The notes beneath the pieces were generated by a model. That model was not told the origin of the DNA, did no database searches, and saw nothing but the letters and a program-made list of their open reading frames with translations. From Natronolimnobius sp. AArcel1 (GTDB lineage Archaea; Halobacteriota; Halobacteria; Halobacteriales; Natrialbaceae): a DNA stretch of 64,000 nucleotides. The DNA is taken from NCBI RefSeq assembly GCF_011043775.1, contig NZ_JAAKXY010000002.1, forward strand, positions 248,001-312,000, given 5' to 3'. Made by a program: the position numbers and the translations under genes. This document shows, one piece after another, positions 41,773 to 42,984 of the stretch (position 1 is its first letter; each line of letters starts with the position of its first letter).

Positions 41773-42075
41773 ATGCCCACTGAGTGGAAACTGTTCGCCG
41801 ATCTCGCCGAACGCGCCGGCGAGAAACACATTCGCGTCGAGGCCAGCGCCGGCGACACCGTCGGCGACGCCCTCGAGGAACTGCTCACTGACCGACCGGC
41901 ACTCGAGGACCGCGTCCTCGACGAGGACGGCGAAGACCTGCGAACCCAGATCAACGTTCTTCGAAACGGAACGAACGTACTGGTCGAAGAAGACGGCCTC
42001 GAGACGGAACTCGAAGCGGGCGACGAGTTGGCGCTGTTTCCGCCGGTCAGCGGCGGGTCGGTTGAGCGCCGCTGA
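41773..42075 (+). CDS. samp1: Ubiquitin-like small archaeal modifier (SAMP1/MoaD type) with C-terminal extension
   Basis: The product has 100 residues. The beta-grasp fold is evident: MPTEWKLFADLAERAG, then TVGDALEELL, INVLRNGTNV and DELALFPPVSGG. In SAMP1 the chain ends at the Gly-Gly, which is activated by UbaA and joined to lysines or used for sulfur transfer. Here five residues (SVERR) follow Gly94-Gly95, so a processing step would be needed. The start ATG is the one nearest to the conserved domain. The stop codon abuts the stop of the convergent acetyltransferase gene. Confidence 0.85.
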   Translation: MPTEWKLFADLAERAGEKHIRVEASAGDTVGDALEELLTDRPALEDRVLDEDGEDLRTQINVLRNGTNVLVEEDGLETELEAGDELALFPPVSGGSVERR

Positions 42076-42984
42076 TTAGCGCTTCATCAGATCGACACCG
42101 AGTGCGAAATCCGGCTCTTCAGATACCGTTGCACCTGCGTAGGCCGCGTCAGTGACGTATTGTGCCGTCTCGGGAATGAGTATGCGCGTTCGATCCACCG
42201 TGAGCGCGGCCGCATCGCGAGCAATCGCCGCAAACAGTGCACGAGCGGAATCGACGTCGTCCCAGGCACCAACGCCGTACTCGGCCCAGCGAACGAGGTC
42301 GCCGTCGTCGTCCTCGCGTTCGAATGTCCGCACGCGATAGCTCGCCCCCGCGAGCCCGTCGTCGCCTTCAACTGCGAAGACGGCCGTCTCATCGGCAAAG
42401 CGCTCGAGGTCCGAGTGAGTGAGTTCGGAGAGCGCCCACGACTCGTCAGAATCGAGCGCCAGTCCCTCGAGTTCCGCGCGCACATCGCTGTGGGTCCAGT
42501 AGCGCCACGCTGGCGCAGGGTCGTGGCTGATCGACCGTGAGTCCGGTATCGTAGCGTCGACATCGGGTTCGACGTGAGCGAATCGAAACTCCGTGAGCGG
42601 GTCGAACCCACTCGAGCGCGAGGCGGCAAAGGAGGCCGTGTTCCACGAGAAAATCATAACGCGCCCGACCGTTGCGCCCTGCTCGCGCGCCCACGCGAAC
42701 AGTTCCTCGTTGAGGCGCTGGCTGACGCCCTGTCGGCGGTAGTCCGACGAGACGCGTAGGCTCTGGAACCAGGCTTCGTCGGGCGAGAGCATGACACCCT
42801 GGACAATCCCCGCGAGGTCGCCGTCAATCTCAGCGAGGAAGGTTTTCTTTCCCTGTCCGGGGTCGTCCTCGAGCCAGTCGTGGTAGATATCGGGCAGGTA
42901 GTCGCCGCCGCGGTCCGCCCAGATGTCGCTCGTCAGTTCACAGACGGCGTCGTAATCGTCGGGTGTCGCTCTGCGGATATGCAT
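42076..42984 (-). CDS. GNAT family N-acetyltransferase
   Basis: The product has 302 residues. The N-terminal GNAT domain (1-140) begins MHIRRATPDDYDAVCELTSD and has the acetyl-CoA binding loop VSSDYRRQGVSQRLNEEL. The C-terminal half carries a second, more divergent acetyltransferase-like region (about 165-295). The double domain is typical of haloarchaeal members. The acceptor substrate is unknown. Confidence 0.85.
   Translation of the reverse strand: MHIRRATPDDYDAVCELTSDIWADRGGDYLPDIYHDWLEDDPGQGKKTFLAEIDGDLAGIVQGVMLSPDEAWFQSLRVSSDYRRQGVSQRLNEELFAWAREQGATVGRVMIFSWNTASFAASRSSGFDPLTEFRFAHVEPDVDATIPDSRSISHDPAPAWRYWTHSDVRAELEGLALDSDESWALSELTHSDLERFADETAVFAVEGDDGLAGASYRVRTFEREDDDGDLVRWAEYGVGAWDDVDSARALFAAIARDAAALTVDRTRILIPETAQYVTDAAYAGATVSEEPDFALGVDLMKR

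Follow-up and report, generated by a model that had tools for sequence, protein, structure and literature searches.

Ubiquitin-like (Ubl) precursors that are trimmed by JAMM proteases are of an already known kind. In eukaryotic pro-ubiquitin and other Ubl precursors, a short tail caps Gly-Gly until a deubiquitinase, of the JAMM or another type, removes it, and in the QbsE/QbsD pair of Pseudomonas, which belongs to a bacterial siderophore pathway, the residues following Gly-Gly of the sulfur carrier are trimmed by a JAMM protease. In the MoaD-related protein of Thermus thermophilus (1v8c; ThiS domain, 168-aa chain), a MoaD-type Ubl is naturally fused to a further domain on its C-terminal side. 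The usual picture of archaeal SAMPs is of proteins that already end at Gly-Gly when made.

The available part of PMC4443979 reports that HvJAMM1 of Haloferax volcanii cuts a linear SAMP1-MoaE fusion exactly after Gly, both in vitro and in vivo, that it does so only when Gly-Gly is present, and that the fusion sustains DMSO respiration only if it is cleaved in this way. H. volcanii has a SAMP1 (NF041918) and a desampylase (NF041370) orthologous to those described below, together with cleavage after Gly-Gly in vivo, but the fusion was artificial and the native SAMP1 ends at Gly-Gly (chains of 3po0 and 4hro). In Caldiarchaeum subterraneum, a distant archaeal lineage, SAMP precursors with residues after Gly-Gly (Csub_C0702 and Csub_C1603) are cleaved in vitro by the cognate protease CsJAMM, and the CsUb precursor, acted on by CsRpn11, likewise has its Gly-Gly covered by a short tail that a deubiquitinase of the JAMM or another type takes off; the part of that paper available to us (PMC6043591) draws no link to the gain and loss of tails. 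CsUb and the eukaryotic precursors differ from the present case in belonging to the ubiquitin family, not to MoaD/SAMP, and the haloarchaeal protease is also a desampylase. In the literature searched, with most subscription papers outside its scope, no statement of tails on haloarchaeal SAMP1 or SAMP3, or of such tails tracking the desampylase, was found.

Results and discussion

The SAMP1 gene and its predicted maturation

The window, i.e. the whole stretch of 64,000 nucleotides analysed, is from Natronolimnobius sp. AArcel1 (genome G000). The ORF at 41773-42075 (+) encodes 100 aa with the C-terminus ...ELALFPPVSGGSVERR, followed by TGA; in translation, its C-terminal stretch reads ELALFPPVSGG-SVERR, with PPVSGG as residues 90-95 and a core of 95 codons. 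As judged by the NCBIfam SAMP1 profile (NF041918; 124.9 bits, cut-off 60), the match to which stops at Gly95, the preliminary description was right to see a SAMP1-like protein that continues for five residues beyond the motif. The nearest solved structures are those of H. volcanii SAMP1 (2l83, 3po0, 4hro), and the AlphaFold2 model (pLDDT 83) is predicted to have a beta-grasp fold, with 3po0 as the best Foldseek match (TM 0.80). Model confidence is lowest at residues 94-98 (pLDDT < 50), and the tail starts inside that stretch. Gly-Gly is present, but with five more residues encoded after it the protein as translated lacks a free C-terminal Gly, and the gene was accordingly classed as coding for a precursor of SAMP1 and not for the ready form. 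The stop codons of this gene and of the convergent ORF abut, and the tail is therefore free of overlap with the coding sequence of the neighbour.

Table 1. Features of the SAMP1 locus and related genes elsewhere in genome G000
Feature	Position	Strand	Basis or remark
SAMP1 core, 95 aa, beta-grasp Ubl/MoaD-type, ends at Gly-Gly	41773..42057	+	translation, profile, structure matches
C-terminal tail SVERR after Gly-Gly, proposed pro-peptide	42058..42072	+	translation; same in genus-mate G001
TGA stop codon, SAMP1 gene	42073..42075	+	sequence
Convergent acetyltransferase-like ORF, GNAT type from reading the sequence	42076..42984	-	outside the mechanism
SAMP3 orthologue	C2:240497		about 7 kb outside the window; 121.7 bits
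Third SAMP-type Ubl (L002, L072)	G000:C1:387519-387782		
More distant MoaD-like protein (L073)	G000:C1:189060		
Desampylase, HvJAMM1 family	G000:C4:283516-283863		NF041370
UbaA-type E1	G000:C1:830796-831518		E 4.2e-83

A JAMM-type protease gene, which the preliminary description had proposed to look for, was found in the same genome: the desampylase scores 153.2 bits against NF041370 (cut-off 130). The JAMM residues HSHP...S..D were read directly in its sequence (HSHP...SETD), and we take them to have their usual catalytic roles. A UbaA-type E1 is also encoded.

Given the cleavage by HvJAMM1 and CsJAMM together with the distribution of tails described below, the most economical explanation is that the desampylase removes SVERR as a pro-peptide, and the gene very probably encodes a pro-SAMP1 that is matured in this way. 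The ribosome would make a precursor of 100 residues, and since SVERR caps Gly94-Gly95, the E1-like UbaA would be unable to adenylate it. The HvJAMM1-type desampylase, a JAMM zinc metalloprotease, would cut the linear peptide bond after Gly95, and the freed C-terminus could then undergo adenylation, thiocarboxylation (as sulfur carrier of molybdopterin synthase) and conjugation to lysines. Tails would arise repeatedly via stop-codon shifts and be tolerated only in genomes that encode the desampylase; a lineage lacking it could not afford a tail. It is the cleavage of SVERR in Natronolimnobius sp. AArcel1 and the route of tail origin that we infer.

Co-occurrence of tails and desampylase

One set of 391 genomes of the class, weighted towards the window's own family, was searched in three ways: for the SAMP1 end motif, for the motif with a stop-like codon, and for the desampylase. 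The Gly-Gly motif was present in 381 genomes and was immediately followed by TRR, a pattern that also admits TGG, in 294; NF041370 was matched in 295. Genomes are called desampylase-negative where no NF041370 match reached E<=1e-10, a definition that would overlook any divergent JAMM protease. Eleven genomes were dropped, ten for an absent motif (G033, G126, G162, G185, G193, G259, G306, G321, G389 and G405; eight are desampylase-negative, and the SAMP1 gene of G033, which was read, has no tail) and the desampylase-negative G349 for a chance motif with no SAMP1 match.

The 380 evaluable genomes comprise 86 with tail and desampylase, 207 with desampylase and no tail, and 87 with neither; a tail without the desampylase was found in none of them (0/87 desampylase-negative genomes). 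The association is therefore one-way. The preliminary description had held that it would be refuted if this gene were the sole exception among close relatives ending at Gly-Gly; with tails in 86/380 genomes of the class, this is not the case. Fisher's test gave p 9.7e-12 with kinship ignored, and the tests that correct for kinship are weaker. With stratification by family, the chance of all tails falling among desampylase-positive genomes is 1.0e-8; within genera p is 0.056, from three informative genera (those with a tail and with both desampylase states), which all agree; when each genus counts as one unit, tails occur in 25/68 desampylase-positive and 0/16 negative genera (p 0.0021). The SAMP1 gene was read in 159 genomes of the class and is tailed in 38 of the 98 with desampylase versus 0/61 without, with no disagreement between read genes and pattern calls. 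By parsimony on the SAMP1 tree, which rests on about 276 bases, all 13 tail gains fall on desampylase-positive branches when every read gene is used (chance 0.001-0.003), as do 4/4 gains when the analysis is restricted to families f2 and f3, which were read almost completely (chance 0.03-0.04). An independent-pairs test yielded two to five supported pairs, too few for significance, and none in the wrong direction.

The lack of tails in desampylase-negative genomes is not due to loss of the E1, since among the 47 genomes tested for it all 26 desampylase-negative ones have the gene; a free Gly-Gly is therefore still needed there. In G115, a tailed genome of 91% completeness, the search for a ThiF-family E1 gave no match.

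Desampylase and E1 genes are direct neighbours, or no more than about 3 kb apart, at G404:C1:474979-476172, G352:C1:3218626-3219815, G152:C2:66862-70114 and G007:C1:985863-989285. At G273:C2:922770-923568, a SAMP3-type gene with an 18-residue tail adjoins the desampylase gene.

SAMP3 tails and fusions

The association repeats in a second gene family. SAMP3 was searched with the motif FPPVAGG in 80 of the 96 desampylase-negative genomes and in 80 positive ones, 54 usable matches being listed for the latter. Matches were sorted by eye into true and chance ones before gene reading, and the genes were then read for 28/28 tailed matches, 4 of the 26 in which Gly-Gly is followed by a stop, and 18 of the 20 from desampylase-negative genomes. 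Those 20 true matches, from the 80 genomes searched, all end at Gly-Gly. Among the matches listed, 28/54 are tailed with desampylase and 0/20 without (Fisher p 1.9e-5), or, by genus, 18/26 versus 0/6 (p 0.0033). Five further exact FPPVAGG matches in desampylase-negative genomes (L170-L174), seemingly tailed SAMP3, were not homologous and were dropped.

Five of the SAMP3 tails, of 90-128 aa, are in-frame fusions with a neighbouring gene (L193, L201, L202, L207 and L210, in G413, G347, G352, G172 and G139, respectively). The partner domain has a RAGG terminus of its own (the sequence of L207 is truncated by the edge of the locus), and in other species SAMP3 and the partner look like separate adjacent genes; this alternation of fused and separate states between species distinguishes the haloarchaeal case from Thermus 1v8c. 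Two domain-only partner sequences were scanned, and one matches DUF1952 (24.1 bits, cut-off 22) while the other does not. 1v8c likewise has DUF1952. Makarova and Koonin (PMC2948915, available part) describe, in Halobacteria, a TBP-fold protein that ends in Gly-Gly and is encoded next to a MoaD-like Ubl; this may be the gene fused to SAMP3 here.

Removal of the tails by another protease, such as a carboxypeptidase or general peptidase, with the desampylase association as a by-product of kinship or of some co-distributed gene, is improbable. The tails are short and disordered, and any carboxypeptidase that stops at Gly could act on them; moreover, the kinship-aware tests are only moderate, and a different gene co-distributed with the desampylase could be the real cause. 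Nevertheless, the association repeats within families, in the three mixed genera and in SAMP3, the 18-aa tail and the in-frame fusions would need an endoprotease, and HvJAMM1 has the required activity, as reported in the available part of PMC4443979.

If maturation by the desampylase holds, a sizeable share of haloarchaeal species (86/380 evaluable genomes in a family-weighted sample) would make a SAMP1 precursor, the desampylase would gain a testable natural role as maturase, and the strict co-occurrence would be explained. One Ubl with many tails, and the protease present or absent, would form a natural series for the origin of ubiquitin-type precursor processing, and annotators and proteomics searches that take the mature C-terminus from the gene would be warned. 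We are evenly divided on a broader reading, namely that the constrained task of the haloarchaeal desampylase lies in maturing the precursors of SAMP1 and SAMP3 and not only in de-conjugation. Each tail gain would then lock in the protease (a constructive-neutral ratchet), so that molybdenum cofactor synthesis and sampylation would come to require it, and SAMP3 precursors would include everything between tails of a single residue and Ubl-partner fusions resembling ubiquitin fusion genes.

SAMP relatives in the window's genome

For the SAMP paralogues of G000, which the preliminary description had proposed to count, searches with the SAMP1 protein and Pfam ThiS gave a single SAMP1 orthologue plus two proteins clearly related to it; the same searches of G000 revealed no second, untailed SAMP1. 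The SAMP3 orthologue, whose best solved match is 2m19 (titled HVO 2177), is also tailed (ADGAGGTDAQDCHSG), and the third protein ends SPPAEGG-CGR. Thus, both clear relatives holding Gly-Gly are tailed, like SAMP1.

The preliminary description had offered two alternatives, and while protease trimming is strongly supported, its proposal of a non-conjugating paralogue, whose Gly-Gly would stay blocked by the tail for good and which would serve a different function, found no support and is very unlikely. The encoded C-terminus agrees with such a role, and other MoaD/Ubl proteins of G000 might carry the sulfur. However, this is the only SAMP1 orthologue in G000, a SAMP1 match is present in 111/111 good-quality genomes of the window's family, the core is conserved, the tailed genes read have kept Gly-Gly, and both relatives are tailed too. 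Furthermore, a permanently blocked protein does not predict the association with the desampylase.

The more distant MoaD-like protein of G000 ends FMFCC instead of Gly-Gly. In several genomes, the SAMP3 gene is faced by a convergent gene with a Cys-Cys end, as read on the reverse strand at SAMP3 matches from desampylase-negative genomes; a CC-ending beta-grasp family is already described in the available part of PMC2948915. The NF041918 cut-off is also passed by the SAMP3-type protein and the third paralogue, and annotation by this profile therefore cannot separate SAMP1 from SAMP3.

SAMP1 tails among relatives

Close relatives share the extension: G001, the only other genome of the genus, carries an identical SVERR tail at 92% protein identity. 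The five tail codons of G000 and G001 differ by two synonymous and no amino-acid changes, and the 95 core codons by 15 synonymous and 8 amino-acid changes. A sequencing or assembly error that removed a stop codon at Gly-Gly, which the preliminary description had mentioned and which might be suspected given that the tail-less Gly-Gly end is the majority form in the window's family, is refuted by G001, since a base-calling slip would not give the same SVERR with synonymous changes in its codons, and tails occur in 86 genomes.

Among the named loci, tailed ones belong to Salinadaptatus, Halalkalicoccus, Natronomonas, Halorubrum, Halorientalis and Salinigranum; most of the others end at Gly-Gly. 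The 133 distinct SAMP1 genes read include 55 tailed ones, which were fetched by preference, with 44 different tails. Unlike those of C. subterraneum, the haloarchaeal tails are short, variable and repeatedly gained. Their median length is 4 residues (<=10 aa in 53/55 genes), whereas the next in-frame stop past 73 tail-less genes lies at a median of 61 (<=10 in 11 of them); the Mann-Whitney test gave 8.5e-15, with kinship ignored and tailed loci preferentially fetched. Because the next in-frame stops are distant, stop loss alone would usually yield longer tails, and simple readthrough of a lost stop was rejected on this ground. The short tails are tentatively taken to reflect selection for shortness, or stop shifts through small changes. 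In residue make-up, the tails have 27% Arg and 8.5% Asp+Glu versus 5% and 24% in the core.

The Halorubrum tails (L038, L043-L046, L051-L053, L055, L061, L062 and L066) are mostly four residues long, variable at the first positions and ending in Arg. Most of them are followed by the conserved sequence ATCGGTCGTTTCAAAC, which may be a promoter element for the gene downstream. At L124 (G170), the SAMP1 frame extends 113 residues beyond Gly-Gly, apparently antisense to a convergent gene, and this is possibly a frameshift or a true long tail.
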